Source: an uncultured Pelagibacteraceae bacterium (GTDB lineage Bacteria; Pseudomonadota; Alphaproteobacteria; Pelagibacterales; Pelagibacteraceae). Taken from it: a DNA stretch of 44,137 bases. The notes under the pieces were generated by a model. It was not told the origin of the DNA, ran no database searches, and worked only from the letters and a program-made list of their open reading frames with translations. This document shows positions 953-26,032 of the stretch, in pieces. The translations under genes were made by a program, and so were the position numbers. Each line of letters starts with the position of its first letter. Within the stretch, counting starts at the first letter, position 1. The stretch spans positions 1 through 44,137 of the forward strand of contig CACEJN010000005.1 of assembly GCA_902559935.1 (NCBI GenBank), given 5' to 3'.

Positions 953-992
953 TAGTCTTTATATTCAATAAATAATTCTATAAGACTTACCT

Positions 993-7422: not shown

Positions 7423-7425
7423 ATA

Positions 7426-7680: not shown

Positions 7681-7690
7681 CAACATTATT

Positions 7691-7718
7691 AATATAAAAG
7701 TAATTACAACAGATTCAA
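7691..7718 (-). promoter_or_regulatory. Predicted promoter of ssrA
   Basis: Read on the - strand, TTGAAT (7718-7713) and TATATT (7696-7691) are 16 bases apart. They would start transcription near 7684, just upstream of the acceptor piece. The elements lie in the short divergent region shared with thyX (ATG 7727). Prediction by eye. Confidence 0.45.
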
Positions 7719-8730: not shown

Positions 8731-9480
8731 ATGAATAAAATATCTAAAAAAAAAATATATGGTGTTGTTATTTGTTACAATAGTGAGCTTGTAATAAAAG
8801 ATCTTTATCAAAGAATAGATAAAGAATTGTTTGATAAAATTTATTTTTTTGATGATAATTCGACAGATAATTCTTATGAAGTTGCAAAAGAGTTTGATTG
8901 GAATGTTGTAAAAAATCAAACTAATTTAGGTCATGGTGGAAATTTAAAAAAAGCTATTAAAACTGCATTTGAAGACGGTGCAGATTATGTTTTAGAAATT
9001 CATGCAGATAACCAATATAATCCTAACTTAATTTTAAAAGCTAAACATTTTATTGAGCAAGATTATGCTCTAATAACAGGTTCAAGATTTGTTAATAAAA
9101 ATCCACATTTAGATGAAGGAATGCCATTTTTAAGATACTTTTCAAATAAAGTTATGAGTAATTTTACCAGAAAACTTTTATCTATAAATCTAAGTGAGTT
9201 CCACACAGGTTTTAAAATTTTTGGTAAAAATTTTTACAACAAAGTTCAATTTGAACATTGTTCAAATAACTATTTGTTTTCTTTTCAAATTATTTTGGCA
9301 ACAAAATTTTTTAATTTAAAATATGGAGAAATTAGTATTTCCGCTGATTATGGAGATAAAGTAAATTCGTGCAATTATTATAATGGTTTTATTTACTTAA
9401 TATCAAATTTTGTTGAAATATTTTTTTATTTGCTAGCTAAATCTAAAATTTTTACAAATATCTTATATAAGCCTAAATAA
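8731..9480 (+). CDS. Family 2 glycosyltransferase
   Basis: The GT-A glycosyltransferase is 249 residues. The N-terminal nucleotide-sugar fold shows IYGVVICYNSE, then FFDDNSTDNSYEVA and TNLGHGGNLKKAIKTA, followed by EIHADNQYNP. The last segment occupies the place of the metal-binding DxD-type motif in dolichyl-phosphate-mannose-synthase-like members. The C-terminal about 30 residues (FIYLISNFVEIFFYLLA) are hydrophobic and may form one membrane segment. It is the first gene of the accessory cassette and could transfer the sugar built by the following genes, but donor and acceptor cannot be deduced from sequence. Its 3' end overlaps the convergent reductase gene by 8 bases. A small AT-rich gap (8681-8730) with TATATTG-like repeats precedes it. 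Confidence 0.8.
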   Translation: MNKISKKKIYGVVICYNSELVIKDLYQRIDKELFDKIYFFDDNSTDNSYEVAKEFDWNVVKNQTNLGHGGNLKKAIKTAFEDGADYVLEIHADNQYNPNLILKAKHFIEQDYALITGSRFVNKNPHLDEGMPFLRYFSNKVMSNFTRKLLSINLSEFHTGFKIFGKNFYNKVQFEHCSNNYLFSFQIILATKFFNLKYGEISISADYGDKVNSCNYYNGFIYLISNFVEIFFYLLAKSKIFTNILYKPK

Positions 9481-10177
9481 TTTTTCTTAATTTAGAAATA
9501 TTCATAGATGGATTTGGAGGAAATATTTTTTTTCCAGATTTTTTTTTAACTTCTGGATTGTTTTTTTTTGCAAAGTTATAAATAGTTTGGATTTTTCCAC
9601 CAATATTAAGAATACCTTTTTTATTCAATATTTTTGGGATTATTTTGACAAAATCTTCATGAAAAATAAAATTTGCTTTTATATCTGAAAAAGCAAATTT
9701 GTGAATAAAAGGTTTTTCACACATACACAGTCTTAATATTAGTGAATTTTTATATAATCTCACAGCGCATTCTCCACCAAGTTTAGACCACGCATAACTA
9801 TTTATAGGTAAAATTGGATCATTCTCTTTATAATTCCCCTTTTTACCTGGATAAATATAATTTGTTGAGAAGTAAATTAATTTAATTTTATACTTTTCAC
9901 AAATTTTCACTACATTAGCCGTCCCAATTATATTTAGATCAATACTTTTTGAGATCTTTTTATCATGGATATTCATTGGCCTAGATAAGCCAGCTGCATG
10001 TAAAACATACTTTGGTTTAATTTTTTTTAAATATTTTTCTATAGATTTAATACTTAAAATATTGAGTTCTTTCTTATTAGGAAAAAAAATGTTTAAAAAA
10101 TTGTTGTTTTTTTTAAGTGTTTTGGCAAACCTACCTTCACCACCTGTTATTACAATTTTTTTTTTTAAAGATCTCAA
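9473..10177 (-). CDS. RmlD-like NAD(P)-dependent sugar reductase (SDR family)
   Basis: This is an extended short-chain dehydrogenase of 234 residues. The Rossmann glycine motif is ITGGEGRFAKTL, slightly atypical, followed by a VLHAAGLSRP loop and the catalytic YxxxK as YAWSKLGGE. The pattern NIIGTANVVKICEKY-KLIYFSTNYIYPG is typical of RmlD/dTDP-4-dehydrorhamnose reductase and sugar epimerase/dehydratase relatives. It is about 50-60 residues shorter than standard RmlD, with the C-terminal substrate domain reduced, yet the active site looks intact. It is the only cassette gene on the - strand and is divergent from the methyltransferase gene. I infer the final 4-keto reduction of a deoxysugar. 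A 4-epimerase is the alternative. Confidence 0.7.
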   Translation of the reverse strand: MRSLKKKIVITGGEGRFAKTLKKNNNFLNIFFPNKKELNILSIKSIEKYLKKIKPKYVLHAAGLSRPMNIHDKKISKSIDLNIIGTANVVKICEKYKIKLIYFSTNYIYPGKKGNYKENDPILPINSYAWSKLGGECAVRLYKNSLILRLCMCEKPFIHKFAFSDIKANFIFHEDFVKIIPKILNKKGILNIGGKIQTIYNFAKKNNPEVKKKSGKKIFPPNPSMNISKLRKII

Positions 10178-10240
10178 TTTAATTATTATTTAATTGTTTA
10201 TGCAAATATATAAACTACATAGTAAAGTTAAATACAAATT

Positions 10241-11425
10241 ATGAAAAAAATCTTTCTAAATTTAGGTAAACAACCTATAGCTAATTCATTTTTGAGCTCT
10301 ATATCTAAGAATACTCTTAAAAAAGAGTATTTTTATAAGCTAAAAGTATGTTTTGATACTGAAAATTTTCTAGTTTCAGTAAAGAACCCCGTGAACCCTA
10401 AAATTCAGTATACTGATGAGTATGCTCATAGAGCATCGGAGTCTGAGACTATGAGAGATGCATTTAAATTAACTGCAAAAAAACTTCATGAAAGATTTAA
10501 ACCTAAAAAAGTTATGGAAATAGGTAGTAATGATGGAGTTTTTTTAAGGAACTTTAAAAAAAATAAAGTTATAGCTGTTGAACCTTGTAAGAATTTAGCA
10601 AATTTAACAAGGAAAAAATTTAAAACATATCCTAGTTTCTGGGATAAAAAACTTTCTAATAAAATATTAAATGAAAATTCAAAGATAGATTTAGTTTTTT
10701 CATCAAATACAATATCTCATATACCCAACTTAAAAGAGACATTTGAAGCTGTACATAACATACTTTCAGATAATGGAGTTTTGGTAATTGAAGATCCATC
10801 ACTAAGTTCTATACTTAAAATTAATTCTTATGATCAGTTTTATGATGAACACGTCTATGTATTCTCTGCGTTATCAATAGAAAACACAGTAAAAAAATAC
10901 AATTTAAAATTATTTGATGTTGAAAAAATCACTAATCATGGTGGATCTTTAAGATATTATATAAGTAAAAAAAAAGGAAATTACAAATCAACCTCCCGTT
11001 TAAAAAAAATTCTTAAAGATGAAAAAAAACAAGGTCTGAATAATTTTAAAACATTCAAGAATTTTGCAAAAAGAGTTCATAAGTCAAAACAAAAACTGAT
11101 AGCACTTCTAAAGAATTTAAAACAAAAAAATAAGAAAATAATAAGTTATGGTGCGACTTATAAATCTACAACAGTATTTAATTATTGCAAGATAGGCACT
11201 AATTTTTTTCACTATGTAACCGATACTACAAAGAACAAACAAGGAAAATTTACACCTGGAATGCACATACCAATATTACCACCAGAAATAGGGTTTAATG
11301 AAAGCGTTGACATTGCATTTTTAGGAGCTTGGAATTTTAAAAAAGAAATAATGAAAAAAGAGAAAGAATTTAGAAAACGAGGAGGTAAGTTTATTACTCA
11401 TGTTCCACAAATAAAAATTATTTGA
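10241..11425 (+). CDS. NDP-sugar C-methyltransferase (TylCIII/NovU/TcaB9-like)
   Basis: The protein is 394 residues with three regions. The short N-terminal part, LNLGKQPIANSF, matches the start of the zinc-binding domain in sugar C-methyltransferases. The central class I SAM-methyltransferase domain has VMEIGSNDGVFLRNF near residue 87 and VLVIEDPSL; YDEHVYVFS is a family hallmark, with the histidine implicated in catalysis. The C-terminal domain carries KKIISYGATYKSTTVFNY and ends HVPQIKII. These enzymes methylate C-3 of NDP-3-keto-deoxysugars. The zinc-binding cysteines that normally precede the LGxQP-N motif are absent, because the protein starts at that motif. The next gene, the 2,3-dehydratase, starts 6 bases downstream, which supports a shared sugar pathway. 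Confidence 0.8.
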   Translation: MKKIFLNLGKQPIANSFLSSISKNTLKKEYFYKLKVCFDTENFLVSVKNPVNPKIQYTDEYAHRASESETMRDAFKLTAKKLHERFKPKKVMEIGSNDGVFLRNFKKNKVIAVEPCKNLANLTRKKFKTYPSFWDKKLSNKILNENSKIDLVFSSNTISHIPNLKETFEAVHNILSDNGVLVIEDPSLSSILKINSYDQFYDEHVYVFSALSIENTVKKYNLKLFDVEKITNHGGSLRYYISKKKGNYKSTSRLKKILKDEKKQGLNNFKTFKNFAKRVHKSKQKLIALLKNLKQKNKKIISYGATYKSTTVFNYCKIGTNFFHYVTDTTKNKQGKFTPGMHIPILPPEIGFNESVDIAFLGAWNFKKEIMKKEKEFRKRGGKFITHVPQIKII

Positions 11426-11431
11426 TAACCG

Positions 11432-12700
11432 ATGCTTAATAAAAATTTTCAAAAATGGCTAAATATTCAAAAAAAAGAAAACAAAATACAGGTCAAGGTA
11501 AAAAAATTAAAAAGTTTAATTAATTGGAATTTTAACAATCAGTTAATATATCATTACAGTAGAAAGTTTTTCAAAATTGTAGGTATTGAGGTAAAATCTA
11601 ACCTTGAAGGAAAAAATTGGGATCAACCTATTATTGTACAAAATGAAATTGGGATATTAGGTATAATAAAAGATAAAATTAAAGACAAATATCTACTTCA
11701 AGCCAAAGTTGAACCAGGAAATAAAAATAAATTACAGTTATCGCCCACTGTTCAAGCAACCAAGAGTAATTATCAAAGAGTTCATGGTGGAAAAAAAATT
11801 CCATTTCTTAAATTTTTCTTAAACAAAAAGAAGAGTTTTATCAGTCAATCTGAACAAGGATACAGATACTTGTTTAAATTTAATAATAATTCATTGATAG
11901 AGATTAGTAAAAAAATAAAAGTATTCAAAAATTTTTATTGGTTTTCTAAAAAAGATTTAGAACATTTAATTAAAAAAAAAAATATTTTAAACATGGATAC
12001 GATTTCTGTTTTTTCCTCCTTCATTAAAAAAAATAAAGAAGATCATCCTATTCAAAAAACGTATGAAATTGATAACTGGATTAAAGCAAGAGATAAAAAA
12101 TATAATTTAAAAATTAAAATAAAACCTTTGATTAATTTAAAACATTGGAAAGTAAGACCTTCAAGCATTGTTCATGAAAATAAAAAACATTTTTCAATCA
12201 TAGGTATTAGAATAAATGCAAATAAAAGAGAAATTAAAGAATGGGAGCAGCCAATTATTAAAGGTAAAGACTTGGGATTTGTTGGGTTCCTAATGAAAGA
12301 GTTTAATAAAACCAATCATTATTTATGCAGATATAATAAAAAACCTGGACTAAAAAAAAGCACTTTATCTTGCTCAGTTAATACTTCAGATTTAAAAAAT
12401 TATAAACAAAATAGTAAATTATTAAATTTTCAAAAAAAACTACTTAAAGATTATTTTTTAAATAAGCAAAATAAACTTGCTAAAATTTATGACAATGTTC
12501 TTTCAGACGAGGGTGGGCGTTTTTATAATTGTGAAATAAGATATAAAGCTTTAAAATTAAAGAGAGAGATGTCAATTAAAATTCCTCAAAACTATATATG
12601 GTTATCAGAAAATCAAATGATACAAATGATTAAGAGAAAAAGAATTGATATAGAAGCCCGACTATTATTTGGATGTATAAATATAAACAAAATAAAATAA
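11432..12700 (+). CDS. NDP-hexose 2,3-dehydratase
   Basis: The 422-residue protein consists of two homologous halves, as in EvaA/TylX3-type 2,3-dehydratases. The first half carries NWDQPIIVQNEIGILGII, LLQAKVEPGN, LQLSPTVQATKSNY and HGGKKIPF. The second half repeats this as EWEQPIIKGKDLGFVGF, RYNKKPG and LSCSVNTSDLKN. A C-terminal LSDEGGRFYNCEIRYKA and WLSENQMIQM complete the family pattern. The enzyme removes the 2-hydroxyl from an NDP-4-keto-6-deoxyhexose, giving a 3,4-diketo-2,6-dideoxy sugar, and is diagnostic of 2,6-dideoxysugar biosynthesis. The second half is more diverged (RYNKKPG against QAKVEPGN), as is usual where one copy dominates nucleotide binding. It lies 1 base before the next gene, so the pair is probably coupled. 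Confidence 0.88.
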   Translation: MLNKNFQKWLNIQKKENKIQVKVKKLKSLINWNFNNQLIYHYSRKFFKIVGIEVKSNLEGKNWDQPIIVQNEIGILGIIKDKIKDKYLLQAKVEPGNKNKLQLSPTVQATKSNYQRVHGGKKIPFLKFFLNKKKSFISQSEQGYRYLFKFNNNSLIEISKKIKVFKNFYWFSKKDLEHLIKKKNILNMDTISVFSSFIKKNKEDHPIQKTYEIDNWIKARDKKYNLKIKIKPLINLKHWKVRPSSIVHENKKHFSIIGIRINANKREIKEWEQPIIKGKDLGFVGFLMKEFNKTNHYLCRYNKKPGLKKSTLSCSVNTSDLKNYKQNSKLLNFQKKLLKDYFLNKQNKLAKIYDNVLSDEGGRFYNCEIRYKALKLKREMSIKIPQNYIWLSENQMIQMIKRKRIDIEARLLFGCININKIK

Positions 12701-12701
12701 T

Positions 12702-13634
12702 TTGAAAAAAAATTATAAAATTTTATTAATTGGTTATTCAAATATTGCAAGAAAAAGATTAATACAAACTTTTGTTAAAAAAAAAATTCCTTTTTGTGTT
12801 GCATCAAAATCTTTTAAAAAAAAGATTAAAGGATCGTATCAACAGTTTAATGATTATAATCAAGCTTTAAAGCAATCAGGCGCAAATATAGTATATTTAT
12901 CATTACCTAACTCGATGCATTTTTTGTGGTCAAAAAAAATATTAAAACTAGGATATCATTTGATAGTTGATAAACCAATTACAACAAAAGTTGGTGAACT
13001 AAATCAATTAATCAGAATAGCGAAAAGAAAAAAATTATTATTAACTGAAGCAACTTTTTTTAATTATCACAATCAATTTAGATTTGTTAAAAAATTTATT
13101 GGAAAACCTAGTAACATTGAGCAAGTTTTTGTAAATTTTACTATTCCAATGCCTAAAAAAAATTCCTTGTTATTATCACCAAAATTTCATGGTGGAACAT
13201 TTATGGATATGAGTCCTTACACAGCTTCAATTAATAGGATATTATTTGAGGAAAAGTTAAAAAAAAAATCGATTATAGTAAAAAAAAATATTCAGAAATT
13301 AATAATCTCATATGACGTTTTTTTAAAATATAAAACCAAAGTTTTTATTGGTACATTTAGGTTTGGTAAAAAATATAATAATAAAATATTAATTTTTCTT
13401 AGAAATAGATCTATCGAAATAAATAGAGCATTTTCTCCTCCAAGTGACCAAAAATTAGAGATCCAAATAACAAAAAAAAATCAAGCACAAACAGCTTTTG
13501 TAAAGAAAGATAATAGTTTTGAAAATTATTTGTCAGAAGTTATTAAGAATATTAAAAATAAACAATATACTTTTTATTTTGATCAAATGATTAAAGATGA
13601 AAATTTTAGGTTTAAGTTACTCAAGGTAAATTGA
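12702..13634 (+). CDS. Gfo/Idh/MocA-family NDP-sugar 3-ketoreductase
   Basis: The protein is 310 residues and starts at TTG 12702, one base after the dehydratase stop. The N-terminal Rossmann fold reads KILLIGYSNIARKRL. The catalytic-lysine motif normally written EKP appears as VDKPITTK. The second domain has GGTFMDMSPYTASINRILF, where family 3-ketoreductases such as KijD10 place the active-site tyrosine. Next to a 2,3-dehydratase, the expected job is reduction of the C-3 ketone of the 3,4-diketo-2,6-dideoxy intermediate with NAD(P)H, the step that stabilises the product. The coding strand is extremely A-rich with many lysines. Its 3' end overlaps the convergent mrp gene by 18 bases. A general NAD-dependent sugar oxidoreductase is the alternative. 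Confidence 0.75.
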   Translation: MKKNYKILLIGYSNIARKRLIQTFVKKKIPFCVASKSFKKKIKGSYQQFNDYNQALKQSGANIVYLSLPNSMHFLWSKKILKLGYHLIVDKPITTKVGELNQLIRIAKRKKLLLTEATFFNYHNQFRFVKKFIGKPSNIEQVFVNFTIPMPKKNSLLLSPKFHGGTFMDMSPYTASINRILFEEKLKKKSIIVKKNIQKLIISYDVFLKYKTKVFIGTFRFGKKYNNKILIFLRNRSIEINRAFSPPSDQKLEIQITKKNQAQTAFVKKDNSFENYLSEVIKNIKNKQYTFYFDQMIKDENFRFKLLKVN

Positions 13635-14495
13635 TTTAATCTTATCAGCAAAATTTAAATAAATTTTAGATATTTCATGATCTGGGTTATTTTCAACTAA
13701 TGGCACACCTTCGTCAGCACTTTTTCCCACTTGTGGATCTATAGGAATTTCACCTAAAAATTCTTTTTGAAATTCCTCTGCAGTTTTCTTAACCCCACCT
13801 TCTCCAAAAATTTTATATTTTTTTCCATCGTCACCCATGAAGTAACTCATGTTATCAACTAAACCTAAAATTTTTACTCCAAGTTTATCAAACATTTTAA
13901 TTCCTCTTTTAACATCTAAAAGAGCTACTTCTTGAGGTGTACTTACAATTATTGCACCATCCATTTTTATTTCTTGAGAAAATGTAAGTTGAGTATCGCC
14001 AGTTCCTGGAGGCATATCAACTATGATAAAATCTAAATCTTTCCAATTTACTTTCTGAGTAAAAGTTTTAATTGCACTTGTAACCATAGGACCACGCCAT
14101 ATCATTGGAGTTTGTTGATCAGCTAAAAAACCAATCGACATGCACTGAATTTCATATTTTGTAACTGGATCTAATTTTTGACCATCACTTTTTGGTTTTT
14201 CATTAATATCAAACATCTTAGGAATTGATGGGCCATAAATATCTGCATCTAAAAGACCAACTTTGCATCCAACTTTCTTTAATGCCAAAGCAAGATTCGT
14301 TGCAAAAGTAGATTTTCCAACACCACCTTTTGCACTAGAGATTGCAATTGTGAACTTTGTTCCAAGAATTGGATTTTTAGTGAATTTTTTAGGCTCTAGC
14401 TTACTTTTCATTGCGGCACTAAGTTCAGGTTTTTTATCAGTCATAAAAGTATCATTACTTGTTTTTTGCAATAAAGACACTATATACTTTGGCAT
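13617..14495 (-). CDS. mrp: Mrp/NBP35-family iron-sulfur carrier P-loop ATPase
   Basis: Mrp proteins bind and transfer Fe-S clusters with a deviant Walker ATPase. The P-loop KGGVGKST is at residues 56-63 of the 292-residue reading. Further motifs are LLDADIYGPSIP, IIVDMPPGTGDTQLT and ADEGVPLVENNPDHEIS. The usual CxxC in the NMSxF region is absent: the sequence reads NMSYFMGDDGKKYKIFGEGG, a form I recall from other alphaproteobacteria but could not check. The upstream MIP18/DUF59-like domain of long Mrp proteins is missing or reduced to about 40 residues. ATG 14495 directly abuts the divergent hflK ATG (CATATG). An internal ATG at 14444 (MTDKKPEL) would leave 51 bases between the genes and is a plausible real start. 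Confidence 0.92.
   Translation of the reverse strand: MPKYIVSLLQKTSNDTFMTDKKPELSAAMKSKLEPKKFTKNPILGTKFTIAISSAKGGVGKSTFATNLALALKKVGCKVGLLDADIYGPSIPKMFDINEKPKSDGQKLDPVTKYEIQCMSIGFLADQQTPMIWRGPMVTSAIKTFTQKVNWKDLDFIIVDMPPGTGDTQLTFSQEIKMDGAIIVSTPQEVALLDVKRGIKMFDKLGVKILGLVDNMSYFMGDDGKKYKIFGEGGVKKTAEEFQKEFLGEIPIDPQVGKSADEGVPLVENNPDHEISKIYLNFADKIKSIYLE
14459..14488 (+). promoter_or_regulatory. Predicted hflK promoter inside the mrp 5' end
   Basis: TTGTTT at 14459-14464 and TATACT at 14483-14488 are 18 bases apart. Transcription would begin near 14495, within a base or two of the hflK ATG at 14496, which implies a leaderless or nearly leaderless mRNA. No Shine-Dalgarno precedes that ATG. Confidence 0.4.
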
Positions 14496-15596
14496 ATGTC
14501 AGACGATTTTAAAGGTCAGAGTCCTTGGGGAACACCTCCTGGTGGAGGTGGCAGTGGCAATGGATCAGGTAGAGGCCCGACACCACCAAATGTCGATGAA
14601 TTAATTAGAGATCTTCAAGATAAAATTAAAAGATTTTTACCTGGTGGAAAAACTTCAGGTGGAAAATCAATAAGTCTAATTTTATTAGTTTTAGTTTTTG
14701 TATGGTTAGCAAGCGGACTTTATAGAGTATTACCCGATGAACAAGGTGTTGTATTAAGATTTGGTAAGTTTGTTAAAACTACACAGCCTGGTTTGAATTA
14801 TCATATCCCTTTTCCTGTTGAAACTGTGCAAACACCGAAAGTCACAAAAGTAAATAGAATGGATATAGGATTTAGATCTGAAAGAGACAGTGGTTTTTCT
14901 ACAGGTGGTGGGGTTGCTGATGTTCCACAAGAAAGCTTGATGTTAACTGGAGATGAAAACATTGTTAACATAGATTTTTCAGTATTCTGGGTAATTAAAG
15001 ATGCTGGAAATTTTTTATTTAAAATTCAAGACCCAGAAGGCACAGTAAAAGCAGCTGCTGAAACTGCAATGAGAGAAGTGATAGCAAAGAGTGATATTCA
15101 GCCAATTTTAACAGAAGGTAGATCTAAAATTGAGGTTGAGACACAAAATATAATTCAAAGTATTTTAGACGATTACGAAAGTGGAATTCAAATTACACAA
15201 GTTCAAACACAAAAAGCGGACCCACCTGATCAAGTAATTGATGCATTTAGGGATGTTCAGGCTGCAAGAGCAGACATGGAAAGATCTAAAAACGAAGCTG
15301 AAGCTTATGCCAATGATGTAATTCCAAGAGCACGGGGGGAAGCGCAAAAAATTTTACAAGCAGCAGAAGCATATAAAAAAGAAGTTGTTGCAAAAGCAGA
15401 GGGTGAAGCTAGTAGATTTATAGCTATTTACAATGAGTATAAAAATGCAAAAGCAGTTACTCAAGAGAGAATGTATTTAGAAACTATGGAAAAAGTTTTA
15501 GCTGATATAGATAAAGTAATTATAGAAAAAAATGCAGGTTCAGGCGTAGTTCCATATTTGCCTTTGCCTGAATTAAAAAAGAAAGCGACGAATTAA
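14496..15596 (+). CDS. hflK: HflK, FtsH protease modulator (SPFH/band 7 family)
   Basis: The protein is 366 residues. The N-terminus is rich in glycine and proline (PWGTPPGGGGSGNGSG). A single membrane segment follows (about residues 58-78, ISLILLVLVFVWLASGLY), then the band 7 domain beginning VLPDEQGVVLRFGKF, and a helical part rich in Ala, Glu and Lys (about residues 245-320). HflK forms a large cage with HflC around the membrane protease FtsH and tunes membrane-protein turnover. The one base between its stop and the hflC start supports a joint operon. ATG abuts the divergent mrp start; the Gly/Pro-rich N-terminus matches the family, so this start is credible. Confidence 0.96.
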   Translation: MSDDFKGQSPWGTPPGGGGSGNGSGRGPTPPNVDELIRDLQDKIKRFLPGGKTSGGKSISLILLVLVFVWLASGLYRVLPDEQGVVLRFGKFVKTTQPGLNYHIPFPVETVQTPKVTKVNRMDIGFRSERDSGFSTGGGVADVPQESLMLTGDENIVNIDFSVFWVIKDAGNFLFKIQDPEGTVKAAAETAMREVIAKSDIQPILTEGRSKIEVETQNIIQSILDDYESGIQITQVQTQKADPPDQVIDAFRDVQAARADMERSKNEAEAYANDVIPRARGEAQKILQAAEAYKKEVVAKAEGEASRFIAIYNEYKNAKAVTQERMYLETMEKVLADIDKVIIEKNAGSGVVPYLPLPELKKKATN

Positions 15597-15597
15597 A

Positions 15598-16470
15598 ATG
15601 AAAGCTGGAAAAATATTAGTTGGATTGTTAGTTGCAATTGGTGTTGTAGCTTTTTTATCAGTAATTATAGTTAAGGAGGTTAACCAAGCAATTATTCTTC
15701 AATTTGGTGATCCAAAAAGAATTATAATGAAACCAGGATTAAACTTTAAAATTCCATTTATTCAAAACGTTGTTTATTTAGATAAAAGAATTTTAAATTT
15801 GGACGCTCCACCCGAAGAGGTTATTGCATCAGATCAAAAACGTTTAATAGTTGATGCTTTTGCAAGATTTCAGATCGTAGATCCACTTAAATTCTATATT
15901 TCCGTTGGAAATGAAAGAGTTGCAAGATCGAGACTGTCTACAATTATAAACTCAAGAATAAGAAATGTATTAGGTCAAGAAGAATTACAAACATTATTAT
16001 CCAAAGATAGATCTAAGCAAATGGCTTTAATCAAAGAAGGTGTTAATAACGAAGCACAAAATTTTGGAATTAATATTGTTGATGTAAGAATTAAAAGAGC
16101 AGACCTTCCTCAGGCAAACAGTGATGCGATTTATAGAAGAATGCAGACTGAGAGGGAAAGAGAAGCAAAAGAATTTAGAGCAAAAGGAGCAGAGATGGCT
16201 GTGACTATCACATCAACTGCTGATAAAGAAGTTACTGTAATCTTAGCAGATGCTCAAAAACAATCAGAGATTATGAAAGGGGAAGGTGATGGACAAAGAA
16301 ATAAAATATTTGCTGACGCCTTTGGACAAGATCCTGAGTTCTTTGCATTCTATAGAGCTATGCAAGCTTATGAAAAAGCACTTATTGGTGGTGAAACTTC
16401 TTTAATTTTATCACCTGATAGTGAATTTTTTAAATTTTTTGGAAATATTAAACCTGAAATCCAACAATAA
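15598..16470 (+). CDS. hflC: HflC, FtsH protease modulator (SPFH/band 7 family)
   Basis: The partner of HflK is 290 residues. It has an N-terminal membrane segment (about residues 5-25, ILVGLLVAIGVVAFLSVIIV), then the band 7 domain starting VNQAIILQFGDPKRII and containing DKRILNLDAPPEEVIASDQKR. Typical HflC features follow: GINIVDVRIKRADLP, YRRMQTEREREAKEFRAKGAE, and an extended helix with ILADAQKQSEIMKGEGD. The C-terminal LILSPDSEFFKFF is also family-typical. It follows hflK by one base and precedes a DUF2065 gene by 7 bases, the arrangement seen in many proteobacterial hflKC operons. Confidence 0.96.
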   Translation: MKAGKILVGLLVAIGVVAFLSVIIVKEVNQAIILQFGDPKRIIMKPGLNFKIPFIQNVVYLDKRILNLDAPPEEVIASDQKRLIVDAFARFQIVDPLKFYISVGNERVARSRLSTIINSRIRNVLGQEELQTLLSKDRSKQMALIKEGVNNEAQNFGINIVDVRIKRADLPQANSDAIYRRMQTEREREAKEFRAKGAEMAVTITSTADKEVTVILADAQKQSEIMKGEGDGQRNKIFADAFGQDPEFFAFYRAMQAYEKALIGGETSLILSPDSEFFKFFGNIKPEIQQ

Positions 16471-16477
16471 TTCTTAA

Positions 16478-16663
16478 ATGCGTGAGCTAGTTATAGCTTT
16501 TGGTCTTTTCTTATTTATTGAAGGAATTTTGTACGCCTTATTTCCAGCAAAAATGAAAAGTATGTTGAAAAAATTAGAACTTGTTAAAGATAGTCAGCTT
16601 AGATCAGGTGGACTTATTTTTGCACTAATAGGTTTTATAATTATTTATTTTATTAAGAGCTAA
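16478..16663 (+). CDS. DUF2065 (YjeT-like) small membrane protein
   Basis: This 61-residue protein has two membrane segments, LVIAFGLFLFIEGILYALF (about residues 4-22) and LIFALIGFIIIYFI (about 46-59), with a short basic loop between them. The pattern ELVIAFGLFLFIEGILYALFPxxMK matches the DUF2065/YjeT family, which is commonly found beside hflKC. Its biochemical function is not known. It sits 7 bases after hflC and 1 base before the Do-like protease, so it probably belongs to the same membrane and periplasmic quality-control operon. Confidence 0.85.
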   Translation: MRELVIAFGLFLFIEGILYALFPAKMKSMLKKLELVKDSQLRSGGLIFALIGFIIIYFIKS

Positions 16664-16664
16664 T

Positions 16665-18080
16665 ATGAATAAGATTAAACTTATATTCTTAACGCTAGTT
16701 ATTTCATTTACTTTTTCATTAAATGTGAATTCAAAACCAGTACCTGCTTCATTTGCAGATCTTGCAGAAAAATTAATGCCATCTGTTGTAAACATTTCTA
16801 CAACAACCACTATCACAACAAATGCTAATCCTTTTCCTTTTCAATTCCCTCCAGGGTCGCCGTTTGAGGATATGTTTAAAGAATTTGGGACACCTCAAGA
16901 AAGACAATCAGCTGCATTAGGCTCTGGATTTATAATAGATGAGAAAGGAATTGTGGTTACGAATAATCACGTTATCCAAGATGCTGACGACATTATTGTT
17001 AGGGTAAATGGTGACCAAGAATTTAAAGCTAAGGTTTTAGGTGCTGACCCATTAATGGATATTGCTGTTTTAAAATTAGAAACAGATGAAAAGTTTATAC
17101 CGGTTGCATTTGGTGACTCTGATAAAGCAAGAATTGGAGACTGGGTTTTAGCAATTGGAAATCCATTTGGTTTGGGTGGGACGGTAACAGCTGGAATAAT
17201 ATCAGCAAGAAATAGATCAATTGGTTTATCAAGATATGAAGATTTTATTCAAACAGACGCTTCTATCAATTCAGGAAACTCAGGTGGGCCTTTGTTTGAT
17301 ATGAATGGAAATGTAATTGGAATTAATACCGCGATTCTTGGACGTAATGGTTCTATTGGAATTGGATTTTCTATACCATCAAACAGTGCTCAAATTGTAA
17401 TTAAACAATTAATAGAATTTGGTGAAACAAAAAGAGGATGGTTAGGAGTTAGAATTCAAGATGTAACAAAAGAAATTGCTGAAGTTGAAAAATTAGATAA
17501 AGCAAGAGGAGCATTAGTTGCGAGTGTTGCTGAAAACAGTCCTTCAGAAAAAGCAGGAATACAAGCTGGTGATATTATTTTAGAATTTAATGGAGAAAAA
17601 ATAAATCAAATGAAAGAGCTTCCAGCAATTGTTGCACGAACAGAGGTTGGAAAAAAAGTTGAAGTTAAAATTTGGAGAGAAAAAAAAGAGATTATCAAAA
17701 ATGTTGTTTTAGGAAGATTAGAAACTTCAGATGATTTTAAAATAAGTAAAAATCAAGAAACTGAAAAACAAAACAATGAAGAGATCATTGAGAGTTTAAG
17801 AATAGCAGTAAGACCATTAACTAAAGAAGATATTAAAAACAGAAAATTACCAAACCAAACAACAGGAGTGGTAATAACAAAAATTGCAAATAATAGTCCT
17901 ATAGCAAATTCAATAGAACTTAATAGTATTATTATTCAAGCTCAGAAGAAAAAAATTAAATCTGCAGATGATTTGAGAGATATTACTAAAGAAGTTTTAA
18001 ATTCAAATCAAAAAACCATTTTACTTGCAATTTATAATAATCAAAATCAACGAAGATATATTGGCGTTAAGTTAGACTGA
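16665..18080 (+). CDS. degP: Periplasmic Do-family serine protease (DegP/DegQ/MucD type)
   Basis: The protein is 471 residues with a signal peptide (about residues 1-23, ending near NVNSKP). The trypsin-like domain has the full triad: His102 in VTNNHVIQDAD, Asp132 in LMDIAVLK and Ser206 in NSGNSGGPL. PDZ1 begins near residue 258 (GWLGVRIQDVTKEIAE) with AGIQAGDIILEFNGEKI. A second, more degenerate PDZ runs from about residue 375 to the end. It degrades or chaperones misfolded envelope proteins. Its place after hflKC and DUF2065 makes a coherent envelope quality-control operon. A Ser/Gly-proline LA loop (PFPFQFPPGSPFEDMF) resembles the DegQ/MucD form, so the symbol is by family, not by strict orthology. 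Confidence 0.94.
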   Translation: MNKIKLIFLTLVISFTFSLNVNSKPVPASFADLAEKLMPSVVNISTTTTITTNANPFPFQFPPGSPFEDMFKEFGTPQERQSAALGSGFIIDEKGIVVTNNHVIQDADDIIVRVNGDQEFKAKVLGADPLMDIAVLKLETDEKFIPVAFGDSDKARIGDWVLAIGNPFGLGGTVTAGIISARNRSIGLSRYEDFIQTDASINSGNSGGPLFDMNGNVIGINTAILGRNGSIGIGFSIPSNSAQIVIKQLIEFGETKRGWLGVRIQDVTKEIAEVEKLDKARGALVASVAENSPSEKAGIQAGDIILEFNGEKINQMKELPAIVARTEVGKKVEVKIWREKKEIIKNVVLGRLETSDDFKISKNQETEKQNNEEIIESLRIAVRPLTKEDIKNRKLPNQTTGVVITKIANNSPIANSIELNSIIIQAQKKKIKSADDLRDITKEVLNSNQKTILLAIYNNQNQRRYIGVKLD

Positions 18081-18082
18081 TC

Positions 18083-18991
18083 ATGGATTTAAAATCCAAG
18101 ATTATATTAATCTCAGGTCCTACAGCTTCAGGAAAATCAAGTTTTGCAATTAAGCTTGCAAAAAAAGTTAATGGAGAAATTATTAATGCAGACAGTATGC
18201 AAGTATACAAACAGCTTAAAATTTTATCTGCTAGACCAGATCCAAAAAAATACCAGAAAATAAAACATCATTTGTATGGTTTTCATAATGTTACAAAAAA
18301 CTTCTCTACAGGTGATTGGCTGAAGTTAGTAATCAAAAAAATTAGGAAAGTTCAAAAAAGAAAAAAAACTCCAATTCTTGTCGGAGGTACAGGCTTATAC
18401 TTTAAGGCTTTAACCGATGGTTTAGTTAAAATACCAAATATTTCTTTAAAATTAAGAACTCAAATTAGAGATTTACAAAAAAAAATTGGACAAAAGAAGT
18501 TTTATGAAAAGCTTTTAAAATTAGATCCACCCTCAATAGGAAAAATAAAACCTACAGACACTCAAAGATCTATCAGAGCTTATGAGGTAAAAAAATTTAC
18601 AAAAAAATCACTTTATGAATGGTTTAAAAATACAAAATCAAACTTCATGGAAGATGATTTTTTTAGAGTTTATATTGATTACCCAAGACAAGAATTAATT
18701 GAGCGTATTAATCTTAGAACAGAAGAGATGATAGAAAATGGAGCAATAAAAGAAGTAAAAGATTTCATAAAGCTAAGGGTTAGAAAAGATAAAAGTGCCA
18801 ATAAGGCCATTGGGGTTAATGAAATTAGGGAATATTTAAAAAAACAAAAAGATTTGAATGATACTAAAGAAAAAATAGCCATAAAAACTAGACAATACGC
18901 CAAAAGACAAAGCACTTGGGCTAGAGGCAATATGATGAGTTGGATGAAACTAAAGCCAGAAGACATAAATAATTTTTTGAAAAAAATTTAA
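18083..18991 (+). CDS. miaA: tRNA dimethylallyltransferase
   Basis: MiaA transfers a dimethylallyl group to N6 of A37 in tRNAs reading UNN codons. Visible are the P-loop GPTASGKSS at residues 11-19, the substrate-recognition DSMQVYKQLKILSARP, HHLYGF, VGGTGLYFKAL, DTQRSIRAYEV, and the C-terminal AIGVNEI and KTRQYAKRQSTWARGN. The length of 302 residues is normal. It starts 2 bases after the protease stop, so it ends the hflKC-degP-miaA run. The adjacency of miaA and the hfl genes is known from gammaproteobacteria as well (miaA-hfq-hflX-hflKC), although hfq and hflX are absent here. Confidence 0.96.
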   Translation: MDLKSKIILISGPTASGKSSFAIKLAKKVNGEIINADSMQVYKQLKILSARPDPKKYQKIKHHLYGFHNVTKNFSTGDWLKLVIKKIRKVQKRKKTPILVGGTGLYFKALTDGLVKIPNISLKLRTQIRDLQKKIGQKKFYEKLLKLDPPSIGKIKPTDTQRSIRAYEVKKFTKKSLYEWFKNTKSNFMEDDFFRVYIDYPRQELIERINLRTEEMIENGAIKEVKDFIKLRVRKDKSANKAIGVNEIREYLKKQKDLNDTKEKIAIKTRQYAKRQSTWARGNMMSWMKLKPEDINNFLKKI

Positions 18992-19008
18992 AATTTTCAT
19001 TCTTAAAC

Positions 19009-19038
19009 TTGACCAATGAGCACAACTTCAGCTAGATT
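19009..19038 (+). promoter_or_regulatory. Possible ilvB promoter
   Basis: TTGACC (19009-19014) and TAGATT (19033-19038) have an 18-base spacer. Transcription would start almost at the ilvB ATG (19044), so the message would be leaderless. The -10 is imperfect. Readthrough from miaA, 52 bases upstream, is an alternative. Confidence 0.3.
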
Positions 19039-19043
19039 GCGAA

Positions 19044-20810
19044 ATGCCAAAATTATTAACTGGAGCAGAAATTGTTTTTAAATGTCTTAAAGACCAAAAG
19101 GTAGAACATATCTTTGGTTATCCAGGTGGTGCAGTGTTACCGATTTATGATGAATTAAAAAATCATCCTTCTATAAAACATATTTTAGTTAGACACGAGC
19201 AAGGTGCCGGTCACGCAGCCGAAGGTTATGCTAGATCATCAGGAAAACCAGGTGTAGTTTTAGTTACATCAGGTCCTGGAGCCACTAATGTTGTTACAGC
19301 ATTAACTGATGCGTATATGGACTCCGTACCATTGGTTTGTATTTCTGGTCAAGTTCCAACACATTTAATTGGAACAGATGCCTTTCAGGAATGTGATACT
19401 ACAGGAATTACAAGACCTTGTACAAAACACAATTGGTTAGTAAAAGATATTAATGATCTATCTAGAGTCATTCATGAGGCTTTCAGAGTTGCAACAACTG
19501 GAAGACCAGGACCAGTTTTAATCGATATTCCAAAAGATATTCAATTTGCAAAAGCGAAATATAAAAAACCAAACAAAGAAAAAAAACTAAACGGAAAATC
19601 TCACAATAAATTTTCTAAAGATCAAATTGATGAATTAGTAAAATTATTAAGCAAGGCCAAAAAACCAATAATCTATAGTGGCGGAGGAGTAATTAACTCA
19701 GGTCCAAAAGCAAGTCATGCTTTAAGAGAATTTGTTGAGCTAACTGGTTTTCCTATAACTTCTACACTTCAAGGATTAGGTGCATACCCAGGAGATGATA
19801 ATCAATTTTTAGGAATGCTTGGTATGCATGGTACTTATGAAGCAAATAATGCTATGCATGATTGTGATCTTTTAATTAATATTGGTGCAAGATTTGATGA
19901 TCGTATTACCGGAAAAATAGATGAGTTTTCACCAAATTCAAAAAAGGTTCATATTGATATAGATCCATCATCAATTAATAAAATTATTAAGGTAGATCTT
20001 GCAATAGTTGGAGATGTTACGAGTGTCATCAGTAAAATTAATAAGACAATTGCTAAAAGAAAAAATGGTCATAGCAAGTCAAATAAATCAAATATAGCTA
20101 AGTGGTGGGAACAAATTGAAAAATGGAGAGAAAAAGATTCTCTTAATTTTATTAATAGCAATGAAAGTATAAAACCTCAACATGCCGTTCAAAGACTTTA
20201 TGAATTAACTAAGAATAAAGATACTTATGTTACCACTGAAGTTGGACAGCATCAAATGTGGGCTGCTCAACATTATAAATTTAATAAACCAAACAGATGG
20301 ATGACATCTGGTGGCTTAGGAACTATGGGGTATGGATTGCCAGCAGCAGTTGGTGTTCAAATTGCTCATCCTGAAAAATTAGTTATTGATATTGCTGGCG
20401 AGGCTTCTGTTTTAATGACTATGCAAGAAATGTCTACGGCAGTTCAATATAATCTTCCTATAAAAATATTTATTTTAAATAACCAATATATGGGAATGGT
20501 AAGACAATGGCAGGAATTATTACATGAAAAAAATTATTCTGAAAGTTATTCTGAAGCATTACCTGATTTTATGAAAATGGCAGAGGCATATGGATGCAAG
20601 GGAATTAAAGTAGATAACCCAGCTGACCTTGATGATAAGATCCAAGAAATGATTGACTACGATGGGCCTGTTATATTTGATTGTCATGTTGATCCTAACG
20701 AGAATTGCTTCCCAATGATACCATCTGGAAAACCTCATAACCAAATGATCTTGGGCCCAAATGATCAAGAGGAAAATAAAATTAAAGGAAAAGGCAAAGC
20801 CTTAGTATAA
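19044..20810 (+). CDS. ilvB: Acetolactate synthase (AHAS) large, catalytic subunit
   Basis: This thiamine-diphosphate enzyme, 588 residues, condenses two pyruvates, or pyruvate with 2-ketobutyrate, for valine/leucine and isoleucine synthesis. Domain order: the PYR domain with [16 protein letters not shown] and the catalytic Glu in [15 protein letters not shown]; the central FAD-type domain ([14 protein letters not shown]); and the ThDP-binding PP domain with [17 protein letters not shown]. The metal-binding GDG/GDA motif reads G452-E453-A454-S455, with Glu where most ThDP enzymes have Asp. The downstream Asn ([14 protein letters not shown]) is present. The gene is followed 5 bases later by its regulatory subunit. 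There is no leader peptide rich in branched-chain residues. The symbol could equally be ilvI. Confidence 0.96.
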
Positions 20811-21364: not shown

Positions 21365-22405
<1,041 letters not shown>

Positions 22406-22414
22406 TAATTGATA

Positions 22415-22504
22415 GTGGAACAAATTCAAAATTTAACAAGAGAAGATTTAAATTTTTTAGTTCAACTATTTTATATAAAATATTCTTCATCCTTATCTAA
22501 ATGA
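22415..22504 (+). CDS. Possible 29-residue ORF, upstream-coupled, unrecognised
   Basis: The frame starts with GTG 22415 (TTG 22409 also in frame) and ends with TGA 22502-22504. That stop overlaps the ATG of the next tiny ORF in an ATGA. The peptide includes LTREDLNFLVQLFYIKYSSS and resembles nothing I can name. The only support is the ATGA linkage, repeated at the next junction, so it could be a decayed gene fragment or a coincidence. Confidence 0.25.
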   Translation: MEQIQNLTREDLNFLVQLFYIKYSSSLSK

Positions 22505-22623
22505 AGAAAAAAATTCCATTCAGATATCCTACAGAAAGATATTTAAATATTATTAAACGAGGATATTCAGATTGTAAGCTCGATAAAAAAAATTTGAAAA
22601 AAGCTTTAACAATCAAATTATGA
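22501..22623 (+). CDS. Possible 40-residue ORF coupled to the sulfatase gene
   Basis: ATG 22501 to TGA 22621-22623, 40 residues, beginning MKKKIPFRYPTERYL. The stop overlaps the ATG of the sulfatase-like gene (ATGA), the standard arrangement for translational coupling. The pattern RYPTERYLNIIKRGYS-x-C-K-L-D faintly resembles the C-terminal end of gamma-glutamylcyclotransferase-like proteins, so it may be a remnant of such a gene. That resemblance is from memory and weak. It is too short to be a full enzyme. Confidence 0.4.
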   Translation: MKKKIPFRYPTERYLNIIKRGYSDCKLDKKNLKKALTIKL

Positions 22624-24365
22624 AAAATTATTTTAATAGAATTAATCTTAATTTAATCTCGATTAGTTTTCTTGTTATTGTAATATTTCCACTAAATTTA
22701 GCAAAAAACAATCAATTCAATTATAATTTAGAATTATTTTTTTCTTTGTTAATTACTGCTTTTATTTTGAGTATAATTTTAATATTTTTAACTATTATAA
22801 CTTTAAAAACCTTATCCGGATTTAAAATATATTCAATTTATTCCAATCTAATTGCATTTGTTTTACTGTGGATATTTATTACTGGTAATTTTCTTCCTAT
22901 ATCAGGTTTATCAGGTCAATTTTTGAATTTAAATTTACCTATTAGGCTTAGATTCGTAATATTAATTAAAATAATATTTATTATTCTTTTTTTTATTTAT
23001 TTAATTAAAAAAGATAAAAACCTCTATTTTTTTAAATTTATTTTTATTTTCACTTTCGTAAATTTAGTTTTTTTATCTTTCAGTATTAAAAAAGATATAA
23101 CAATAAATAAAGAAAATAACCTCAGCAAGTTTGGGAGTAAAAACTTAATTGTTTTAAGTTTTGATGGAATTTCAGGTCATAAAATTTCTAAAGAAATATT
23201 TGATAATAAAATTTTAAATCAAACACTTAAAGATTTTAAACTTTATGAAAATACTATTTCAGGTGCCCCATTCACCACACCTTCTATCATAATTGAACTA
23301 AATGGAAAATATACAAAAAATAATTCTAAAAATATTTTAAATAATGAAAACATTGATACTCTTGTATATGGAACTTATAGAGTTGGACTTTCAGATACAA
23401 ACAAAGGTGTAATCAAATCTCAATTACAAAATTATAATAATTCTTTTAAATTAAATTTGTTTTTCCAAAAATATTGGTTGGGTTCTGTGGGTAGGTGGTC
23501 TTCACCGATTGGTATAATTTTGCTTAAACCTCTAATATATAATGATATGTATAAAACCTTTATAGAGTCAGTATCATTTAATAATAAAGACAAGAATAAC
23601 CCATTCGATTTTATTACTAGTAGAGATAAAGTAGATTTATATGAACTCGATATTATTTTAGATCAAATAAATTTTGATGAAAGCTTAAAAAATGTTATCC
23701 GAATGTATCATTTTACCTTTTCCCATTGGCCAATTAAATTAAATGAAGATTGTAAAGAAATAGATTCCTTTAGTGATAATATTCAAGCATCACAATATGA
23801 ACAAATAATGTTAAAATGTATTTCAAAAAAAATTGTTAAATTTATAAATAAACTTAAAGGTCAAAATATTTATGATAATTCAATGATTGTGATAAAATCT
23901 GATCATGCAAAACCAAATTGTAATGAGACACGTCACACAAAGTATAAAATATCAGATTTTTATAATCCACAGTGCAATCCACATTATAGCGAATATCCAT
24001 ACACTGAAAAATTGAATAATCATTTTTATTATGGTTTTGGCAGGTACAAACCATTTATACTGATTAAAGATCAATATCAGACTCGTGATAAAGTTAAAAT
24101 TTCTAAAAAACAGGTTTTTTTACATGATTTAAGTATTACTTTCTGTAATTTTTTTCTAGAACTTAACAATTGTGAAATATCTAATAGAAATGATCTAACT
24201 AAACCTGAAAATGAATTTTCTAATAATAAATATGATATTTATATTACAGAACCTCAATTTACTTTAAGTACAACTAATTTTTCAAAATTAAAAAAATATC
24301 AAATTGAAAGTAATCAAAGTTTTTTAGATTATTTAAAATCAAAGAAGATCATTACTTTAAATTAA
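22620..24365 (+). CDS. Membrane-anchored sulfatase/alkaline phosphatase-superfamily protein
   Basis: The protein is 581 residues. Five membrane segments occupy roughly residues 14-30, 38-63, 72-93, 109-128 and 135-155. A soluble domain then begins NLIVLSFDGISGHKIS, where SFDG supplies the first metal-binding Asp of the superfamily. GAPFTTPSI presents a Thr at the expected nucleophile position, and VIKSDHAKP gives the Asp-His metal pair. A Thr nucleophile and membrane anchor resemble phosphoethanolamine or phosphoglycerol transferases (EptA/LtaS/OpgB-like) more than true sulfatases, which need Cys/Ser. The substrate is not deducible; a role in modifying lipids or envelope glycans is inferred. 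The sequence is very AT-rich, and it stands between core biosynthetic genes and a transporter, so it looks like an accessory insertion. Confidence 0.72.
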   Translation: MKNYFNRINLNLISISFLVIVIFPLNLAKNNQFNYNLELFFSLLITAFILSIILIFLTIITLKTLSGFKIYSIYSNLIAFVLLWIFITGNFLPISGLSGQFLNLNLPIRLRFVILIKIIFIILFFIYLIKKDKNLYFFKFIFIFTFVNLVFLSFSIKKDITINKENNLSKFGSKNLIVLSFDGISGHKISKEIFDNKILNQTLKDFKLYENTISGAPFTTPSIIIELNGKYTKNNSKNILNNENIDTLVYGTYRVGLSDTNKGVIKSQLQNYNNSFKLNLFFQKYWLGSVGRWSSPIGIILLKPLIYNDMYKTFIESVSFNNKDKNNPFDFITSRDKVDLYELDIILDQINFDESLKNVIRMYHFTFSHWPIKLNEDCKEIDSFSDNIQASQYEQIMLKCISKKIVKFINKLKGQNIYDNSMIVIKSDHAKPNCNETRHTKYKISDFYNPQCNPHYSEYPYTEKLNNHFYYGFGRYKPFILIKDQYQTRDKVKISKKQVFLHDLSITFCNFFLELNNCEISNRNDLTKPENEFSNNKYDIYITEPQFTLSTTNFSKLKKYQIESNQSFLDYLKSKKIITLN

Positions 24366-24406
24366 TTTTTTTTTAATTATAATTGTTAAAATACACGGAA
24401 AATTAT

Positions 24407-24469: not shown

Positions 24470-26032
24470 ATGAATACTAAAAATATATTAAGAATTTTAT
24501 TATCACTAGTTCTAGTATTTGGATTTTCTTCAGCATGGGCAAAAACAATCAAATGGTCTATGCAAGGAGACAGTCTAACACTAGATCCGCATGCACAAAA
24601 TGAGGGTCCAACTACTCAGGTTTCAAGGCAAGTCTATGAAGCACTTGTTCAAAGAGGTCTTGATATGAAAATAGGACCAGCTTTAGCAACTAAGTGGAGA
24701 GCAACAGATCCTAATAATTGGGAATTTACATTAAGAAAAGGTGTAAAATTTTCTGATGGTTCTGATATGACATCTGAAGATGTCGTATTTAGTATATTGA
24801 GAGCTAAACAAAGAACATCGGATTTTAAAGAGTACATTAGCACTATCTCAGGAGTTAAAGCGGTTGGTGATCACACTGTTATAATTACAACAAGTAAACC
24901 AAATCCTATTCTGTTAAATCAACTCTCAAATATTTTTATCATGTCTAAAGCATGGTCGGAGAAAAATTTTGCAATGGCACCACAAAATTGGGATGCAGGG
25001 CAAGAAACATTTTCAGCTACAAATGCTTTGGGAACTGGACCTTTTAAAATTACTTTAAGAGAGCCTAACACTAAAACTGTGTTTAAAAGAAATAAACACT
25101 GGTGGGGTGAGATGAAGGATAAAAAAGTAACTCAAATTGAATTACTTCCAATTAAAAATGCAGCTACTAGAGTTGCAGCATTATTATCTGGAGAAATTGA
25201 TATAGTTACAGATGCACCTGTTCAGGATTTAAAAAGAATTGGTTCTTCTTCAGGTCACAAAGTTGAAAGTACAGCACAAATGCGTACAATTTTCTTAGGA
25301 ATGGATCAAGCGGCTGACAAGTTAAGAACAGGTAACACAGGCGATAACCCATTTAAGAAAAAAGAGGTAAGACAAGCTCTTTATCAGGCAATTGATATAG
25401 AGGCGATCAAGAAAAAAGTTATGAGAGGTTTAAGTGAGCCAGCAGGAATTATAACTTTTCCAGGTGTAAATGGTTACACTAAAGATCTTGATAAAAGATT
25501 ACCTTACGATGTTAATGCTGCAAAAAAACTTTTAGCTGATGCAGGTTATCCTAATGGTTTTGATGTTGAACTTAGATGTCCTAACGACAGATATGTAAAC
25601 GATGAAGCAATTTGTACTGCTGTTGTTGGAATGTTAGGTAAAATTGGAGTTAACGTTAACTTATTCGCTCAAACTAAAAGTAAACACTTCAAAGAGCTTA
25701 AAGATGATCAGGGTGATTTCTATATGCTAGGATGGGGTGTTCCAACTTTAGATAGTCACTATGTTTTCCATTACTTATATGAAACTGGTGCTAGCTGGAA
25801 CAAAGTTAACTTTAGTAACGCAGACGTTGATGCTGCAATTAGAGTTATGGAAGGCGAAGTGGATTTAGATAAAAGAAATGCTGCAATTGCAAAAGCTTGG
25901 AAAATTGTAAAAGATGATATTTCTTATCTTCCTTTACATCACCAAGTAATTTCTTGGGCATCTAAAAGTAATGTTGACGTTCCTATCAGACCGAATAACG
26001 AACCATTATTCAGAACTGCTAGTTTTAACTAA
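24470..26032 (+). CDS. ABC transporter family 5 extracellular solute-binding protein
   Basis: The protein is 520 residues with a signal peptide of about 24 residues (hydrophobic ILRILLSLVLVFGFSSAWA, then KTIKW). It has the bacterial extracellular family 5 pattern: SLTLDPHAQNEGPT, QVYEALVQRGLDMKIGPALATKW, FTLRKGVKFSDGSDMTSEDVVFSI, NALGTGPFKI, VRQALYQAIDIEAIKKKVMRG and AKKLLADAGYPNGFDVEL. Family members bind peptides, opines, nickel complexes, dipeptides or glutathione; the sequence does not tell which. It is the first gene of a full importer operon, with the strongest ribosome-binding site in the neighbourhood and a palindrome after its stop. Both suggest it is made in excess over the membrane parts, as is usual for binding proteins. 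Confidence 0.92.
   Translation: MNTKNILRILLSLVLVFGFSSAWAKTIKWSMQGDSLTLDPHAQNEGPTTQVSRQVYEALVQRGLDMKIGPALATKWRATDPNNWEFTLRKGVKFSDGSDMTSEDVVFSILRAKQRTSDFKEYISTISGVKAVGDHTVIITTSKPNPILLNQLSNIFIMSKAWSEKNFAMAPQNWDAGQETFSATNALGTGPFKITLREPNTKTVFKRNKHWWGEMKDKKVTQIELLPIKNAATRVAALLSGEIDIVTDAPVQDLKRIGSSSGHKVESTAQMRTIFLGMDQAADKLRTGNTGDNPFKKKEVRQALYQAIDIEAIKKKVMRGLSEPAGIITFPGVNGYTKDLDKRLPYDVNAAKKLLADAGYPNGFDVELRCPNDRYVNDEAICTAVVGMLGKIGVNVNLFAQTKSKHFKELKDDQGDFYMLGWGVPTLDSHYVFHYLYETGASWNKVNFSNADVDAAIRVMEGEVDLDKRNAAIAKAWKIVKDDISYLPLHHQVISWASKSNVDVPIRPNNEPLFRTASFN

Follow-up and report, generated by a model that had tools for sequence, protein, structure and literature searches.

NoeA and NoeB of S. meliloti were reportedly described in 1995 as host-range proteins for Medicago. 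Both are thought to modify Nod factors, and for NoeB this is put forward as a hypothesis (PMC9048898). An alkaline-phosphatase fold has been predicted for NoeB in PMC9758233, where a homologue of NoeA, a kinase-methyltransferase whose neighbours are conserved, was already reported. For LtaS, EptA and YejM the site is described as having Thr as its nucleophile, an acidic residue as the first one, and Asp/His at the metal (PMC7576196); the acidic residue is Asp268 in YejM, a Glu in LtaS and Glu240 in EptA.

The open reading frame described here (the ORF, Table 1) encodes a protein of 581 amino acids on the plus strand, and its ends coincide exactly with those first called. The window, by which we mean the whole stretch of 44,137 nucleotides that was analysed, belongs to the SAR11 group, which we take to be the same as Pelagibacteraceae, and comes from a genome that is 58% complete, with 52 contigs totalling 817 kb. 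When the 2007-base insert was simulated 2000 times with a first-order Markov model, stop-free runs reached 145 codons at most; the ORF, which keeps 581 codons open at 21% GC, is far longer than expected by chance. Over 447 codons shared with its closest homologue dN is 0.32 and dS 1.38, values that would fit purifying selection, and the ratio of about 0.23 includes a nearly saturated dS to which both lineages contribute. Around the ORF 24 promoter-like sites were counted against a shuffle mean of 20.8, which is no excess, and there was no terminator-like site.

According to hydropathy the N-terminal part holds five hydrophobic segments, at residues 4-30, 34-71, 68-99, 101-133 and 134-158, in agreement with the five-helix N-terminus that an earlier note on this DNA had claimed. 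The presumably periplasmic remainder was compared within an alignment of 24 SAR11 rows, that is 24 of the 25 family genes defined below, L145 being left out. Asp182, Pro371, Cys378, Cys400, Asp428 and His429 are invariant in all 24 rows, His364 is kept in 23 and His369 in 22, and the column of Thr219 contains Thr in 17 rows and Ser in 7. These residues fit, as far as an alignment can tell, the site layout of LtaS, EptA and YejM. A lack of conserved metal-site residues, which the earlier note had named as an argument against itself, was not what we found, Asp182, Asp428 and His429 being present in every row. The sulfatase maturation motif, Cys/Ser-x-Pro-x-Arg, is absent from the ORF and T219-T-P-S-I stands there. 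The proposed alkaline-phosphatase-superfamily motifs with a Thr at the nucleophile site are supported. The only Pfam match of the ORF is Sulfatase (PF00884; E 0.0012, 18.7 bits, under the 25-bit cut-off) and nothing in PHROGs matches it at E 0.1. As no NCBIfam family matches at E 0.01, the OpgB models PRK03776 and PRK12363 included, the candidacy of the ORF as a bona fide OpgB was dropped. Two AlphaFold models, each made from a two-sequence alignment, had a mean pLDDT of 37 for the whole ORF and of 33 for the periplasmic part; because both are unusable, the predicted alkaline-phosphatase fold is based on motifs and profiles.

Table 1. Position of the ORF, its predicted elements and the surroundings of the insert in the window.
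Feature	Coordinates	Strand	Basis
ORF, candidate membrane-anchored alkaline-phosphatase-superfamily (NoeB/OpgB-like) phosphotransferase	22620..24365	+	hydropathy, Pfam, alignment, profiles
Five hydrophobic segments, predicted membrane anchor, codons 4-158	22629..23093	+	hydropathy
Asp182, putative first metal ligand by alignment (24/24)	23163..23165	+	
Thr219, putative nucleophile position by alignment	23274..23276	+	
His364 to Pro371 (H-x4-H-x-P)	23709..23732	+	
Cys378 and Cys400, invariant pair, aligned with Cys of OpgB and NoeB	23751..23819	+	
Asp428-His429, putative second metal site by alignment (24/24)	23901..23906	+	
AT-rich insert, missing in close relatives	22403..24395	+	alignment with 17 ilvC-SBP intergenic regions, GC
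ilvC, left flank of the empty site	21383..22405	+	
Family-5 solute-binding-protein (SBP) gene, right flank of the empty site	24470..26032	+	
3' fragment, about 38 codons, of a gene of about 133 aa	22501..22623	+	identity to the intact gene in relatives

The 24-row SAR11 profile aligned with S. meliloti NoeB at E 6.3e-14 over 264 columns, with SAR11 sulfatases at E 1.3e-8, which is better than with OpgB, with E. coli OpgB plus the SAR11 protein L069 at E 7.1e-7, the Cys pair being in register, and with E. coli EptA/B/C at E 2.6e-5, most of the catalytic domain being aligned; two unrelated control proteins gave E 0.83 and 0.09. A narrower, two-row profile of the ORF and its homologue reached E 6.3e-5 with NoeB (83 columns), E 5.9e-9 with NoeB plus four SAR11 rows and E 1.2e-4 with OpgB plus L069, and in PDB it retrieved no superfamily member, just a chance match. 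With an eight-row SAR11 profile the best PDB matches were sulfatases (E 8.6e-7), and EptC (E 0.0031), lipooligosaccharide phosphoethanolamine transferase A (E 0.0054) and MCR (E 0.11 to 0.87) were also matched. Taken pairwise against shuffled sequences, the ORF gave z values of 8.0, 3.3 and -0.4 with three SAR11 sulfatases, 6.0 with E. coli OpgB, 1.5 with the OpgB-like L069, and 0.6 and -0.6 with two unrelated controls. The values for EptA, EptB and EptC (0.2, -0.4 and 0.8) do not rise above the shuffles, and an EptA identity was dropped on this ground and because the ORF has Asp instead of Glu as the first metal residue. A tree places the ORF together with its homologue, apart from the other members, on a very long branch of 3.0 changes per column. 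Sequence scores alone do not separate a sulfatase from a transferase here. We favour the transferase side because of the Thr without a maturation motif, the predicted membrane anchor, the Cys pair aligned with those of OpgB and NoeB, and the genes that lie beside its relatives.

With the ORF protein as query, the 397 genomes searched in the order gave one match, the own genome, and the 398 searched in the phylum gave two; the second of these (G769, 41%) is confined to 57 residues of the membrane part and was regarded as a chance match. A tblastn search at E 0.01 gave no homologue of the ORF in phages or plasmids, and peptide-pattern searches with the ORF or its parts gave no confirmed homologue in genome_contigs or viral_contigs. 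A pattern built from the two-row alignment retrieved a single contig in genome_contigs, from AG-426-P20, and none in viral_contigs. AG-426-P20, which we take to be a single-cell genome, is of the same genus and carries the sole close homologue that was found, with 56% identity across 446 residues. The frame of this homologue is open only from about residue 134-139, the preceding membrane part being missing. Its contig (QCNX01000019.1, L120; 19,529 bases) has perfect inverted ends of 5439 bases (1-5439 and 14091-19529), which probably makes it an amplification chimera, and for this reason the copy is no proof of natural truncation. As for the wider SAR11 family, the eight-row profile found members in 39 of 399 genomes of the genus, 33 at E 1e-24 or better, and the 24-row profile in 18 of 250 genomes of the class, the own genome included in both counts. 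A broken NoeB-like copy with 14 in-frame stops was also seen in a close relative (G827:C17:10408-11778).

The 25 family genes considered below are those of the window, of L120, of L073, L075, L080, L081, L082 and L084 (fetched with PF00884) and of 17 wide loci (L137-L153). Partial copies at contig ends (L085/L092, L095, L097, L102, L104, L106), a short copy (L078), broken copies and eight-row-profile matches without a wide locus were left out. Most of the 67 controls come from two sets, SAR11 sulfatase loci (L004-L033) and SBP loci (L034-L063). One control, L034, overlaps with the window, part of the ORF included, and another, L155, was fetched for its TagB-like gene and is the only control to have one.

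In AG-426-P20 the homologue is followed on the same strand by a small membrane protein with the peptide AYLDPGTGS and then by a TagB-like gene (PF04464); no NoeA was found within 5 kb of it, and the same contig bears a phosphonate-type transporter, an NTP-transferase, thyX, hflK, hflC and degP. Of the 25 family genes, 19 have a match to the small protein no more than 5 kb away, and none of the 67 control loci has one. A wider first count, overlapping duplicates included, gave 34 of 62 loci with a profile member and 3 of 93 without one, and these three (L077, L079 and L083) had all been selected by weak matches to PF00884. The copies of the small protein that were scanned matched no model of Pfam or NCBIfam. 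Used as a query it found no phage match and 60 weakly matching plasmid records (best E 1e-3), all from Sinorhizobium, Rhizobium or Ensifer; a second SAR11 small protein gave no plasmid match. On pSymA of S. meliloti the small AYLDPGTGS protein that was matched precedes noeA and noeB (L177:5992-9283), and this protein, when used as query, again returned 19 of the 25 family loci and no control. NoeA is 38% and 40% identical to genes adjoining two SAR11 members, and 31-41% over all matched loci. NoeA-like genes occur within 5 kb of eight family genes and at no control, TagB-like genes within 5 kb of eight family genes and at the control L155; the two sets of family loci are disjoint, for which the chance is about 0.02. 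At L084, L144, L149, L150 and L153 the small protein, the NoeA-like gene and the family gene follow each other in that order on one strand. In the window neither the small protein nor a NoeA or TagB-like gene is found beside the ORF. Elsewhere in its own, 58% complete genome a TagB-like gene is situated on another contig, and searches there for the small protein and NoeA, run without a positive control, gave no match. Neighbour proteins from 15 of the 17 wide loci (L150 and L152, near-repeats of L149, were omitted) were scanned with Pfam, 118 out of 139; they showed 163 families, and none of the 25 listed occurs in more than four members; DnaG, sigma-70, ATP-sulfurylase and PPDK are among those listed, and GT2 in two members. 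The scan gave no sign of a common sugar island, and the idea that the family is part of an LPS island was set aside.

The site of the ORF is empty in 17 of the 29 SBP loci of other genomes that were compared, the best-scoring ones out of 69 genomes that matched. In these 17, ilvC immediately precedes the SBP gene, fewer than 100 bases separate the two, and there is no ORF; the remaining 12 have no ilvC within the 1.5 kb examined. The edges of the insert were judged by eye from the alignment and are approximate. Its GC content is 18-26% in 500-base windows, against mostly 30-36% in the flanks, and low GC is usual in this gene family (19-25% across 24 members). Near the start of the insert lies a 3' gene fragment that overlaps the start of the ORF by four bases and is at most 78% identical to the C-terminus of an intact gene located elsewhere in relatives. 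By its motif this gene may be gamma-glutamylcyclotransferase-like. In four relative loci the intact gene has a constant neighbour on one side, presumably cinA by its motifs, and varying genes on the other. Because the 3' end of this gene heads the insert, it suggests that such a gene preceded the ORF in the donor; a gene of this kind is a neighbour in none of the 24 other family loci. The ORF, which stands between two core genes, is most likely a horizontally acquired solo gene which came from another site or genome. An accessory gene inserted between ilvC and a transporter gene, as it had been described, is in accordance with both its rarity and the empty sites.

A second claim about the surroundings, that the ORF fits with the sugar cassette of the window, found no support and was dropped. 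The cassette (8731-13634), inserted between thyX and a NUBPL-type gene, consists of genes for a GT2, an RmlD-like reductase (minus strand), a C-methyltransferase, an NDP-hexose 2,3-dehydratase and a Gfo/Idh/MocA oxidoreductase. Cassette and ORF are insertions of their own, with core genes in the almost 9 kb that separate them, and G184, G145 and G020 lack both at those places. Matches to the cassette methyltransferase reach at most 37% in 10 of 19 other genomes and none was found in the rest; in the genome of the closest homologue (G992, 76% complete) the match is only 31%. Two further features of the window may be mentioned: the glycyl-tRNA synthetase beta gene (2670-4756) is split over two frames near 3270-3500, perhaps by a sequencing or amplification error, and a tmRNA gene lies at 7391-7699 on the minus strand with the tag ANESYALAA, the asterisk of ARAGORN being read as permuted.

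We consider it rather probable that the ORF encodes an inner-membrane protein in which a five-helix anchor carries a periplasmic, metal-dependent domain of the alkaline-phosphatase superfamily, and that this domain would transfer a phospho group to a surface glycan or lipid. Its ancestry may best be explained by a deep branch beside the NoeB-like family which is OpgB-like around the Cys pair. Asp182 and Asp428-His429 would hold the metal that activates Thr219, Thr219 would take the phospho group from a phospholipid or a polyol-phosphate polymer and hand it to the surface glycan or lipid, and Cys378-Cys400 could form a periplasmic disulfide beside the H-x-P loop. The group transferred would most likely be glycerol phosphate or a similar polyol or ethanolamine phosphate, polyol phosphate being favoured because of the similarity to OpgB and the TagB-like neighbours of the relatives. 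Of the EptA/LtaS/OpgB-like phospho- or sulfo-transferase that the earlier note suggested, the enzyme class is retained in outline, and nothing points to the sulfo option.

It is improbable, though still to be taken seriously, that the ORF is a divergent membrane-bound hydrolase, similar to sulfatases or phosphodiesterases, that removes sulfate or phosphate from sugar esters. Sulfatase is its sole Pfam match, its z value with one SAR11 sulfatase exceeds that with OpgB, and both the 24-row profile and the PDB search speak for sulfatases; the z values with the two other SAR11 sulfatases are much lower, and the nucleophile would be a Thr outside any maturation motif. The earlier note would have counted it against itself if classical sulfatases that bear a maturation Cys/Ser were the nearest matches, and here the picture is mixed, since sulfatases do score high but Thr replaces the Cys/Ser and the Arg is absent. 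A five-helix anchor as in YejM and EptA (PMC7576196) also argues against a hydrolase, as do the TagB-like or NoeA-like neighbours at 16 of the 25 family loci, the window not being among them. The same anchor brings up a regulator of the LapC/YejM kind, which would keep the fold, would have lost most or all catalysis and would sense envelope lipids, the layout of five hydrophobic helices and a periplasmic domain being alike (PMC7576196). We regard this as very unlikely: the 24-row profile shows no similarity to E. coli LapC (E 0.22), the z value of the ORF with LapC is 1.4, the residues conserved in all 24 rows are the catalytic ones, the gene is rare and not core, and YejM itself is reported to have phosphatase activity (PMC7576196).

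That the ORF is a decaying remnant, a solo gene which arrived without its partners and is out of use, is suggested by the missing small, NoeA or TagB-like partner beside it and by the broken or truncated family copies in relatives. This seems to us quite unlikely, between the hydrolase and the regulator in probability, as the 581 codons are intact at low GC, the dN/dS with the homologue is low, albeit with dS near saturation, and the motif residues are present. Returning to the phospho-group transferase, a broader idea can be offered, speculative and rather improbable: SAR11 may swap compact modules for surface-phosphate decoration at many core-gene junctions. In each module the small AYLDPGTGS protein and a NoeB-type transferase would be joined by a NoeA-type kinase-methyltransferase or, in its place, by a TagB-like polyol-phosphate transferase. 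The ORF would then be a solo transferase of a new subfamily, and the product a teichoic-acid-like polyol phosphate on a Gram-negative surface, plausibly selected by phages. Among the titles and abstract openings listed by the literature searches none dealt with such genes in SAR11, and a literature search with the peptide DPGTGS returned one unrelated paper.

In comparison with the known enzymes, the ORF shares with EptA, EptB and EptC the Thr at the nucleophile position; the first metal residue, Glu240 in EptA (PMC7576196), corresponds to Asp182 in the ORF and to Asp in all 24 rows. Its likeness to the LtaS type is based on a weak match (phmmer E 0.012) to 4uop, a chain named lipoteichoic acid primase. 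From Sulfatase (PF00884) it is set apart by a score below the curated cut-off and by the missing maturation motif. With OpgB/MdoB (phosphoglycerol transferase I) of E. coli it aligns in H-x-P, the Cys pair and the S-D-H region, Cys378 and Cys400 facing Cys346 and Cys366. The Cys pair after H-x-P is also present in L069, which matches the NCBIfam OpgB model at E 8.8e-41, below the curated cut-off, and such a pair would appear to define the OpgB family. Unlike the ORF, E. coli OpgB has 763 amino acids with a further C-terminal part. For SAR11 the ORF provides one concrete candidate for an envelope-modifying enzyme in the flexible genome.

NoeB and the SAR11 family have the Asp, the Thr (Thr203 in NoeB), H-x-P, the Cys pair and Asp-His in register, and both are hydrophobic at the N-terminus. 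By the profile similarity of its core the ORF falls in with the NoeB-like family, whereas by its neighbourhood, in which NoeA and/or the small protein would be expected, it does not; unlike NoeB it stands without these neighbours, on a deep separate branch, and its C-terminal stretch differs from those of the other SAR11 members. NoeB itself belongs to the operon nodL-noeA-noeB, and the order small protein, NoeA and NoeB of pSymA is shared by five SAR11 loci. Because NoeB relatives are exchangeable in SAR11 and this order is kept at five of 25 loci, the module probably modifies a general bacterial surface or secreted glycan and is not special to nodulation.
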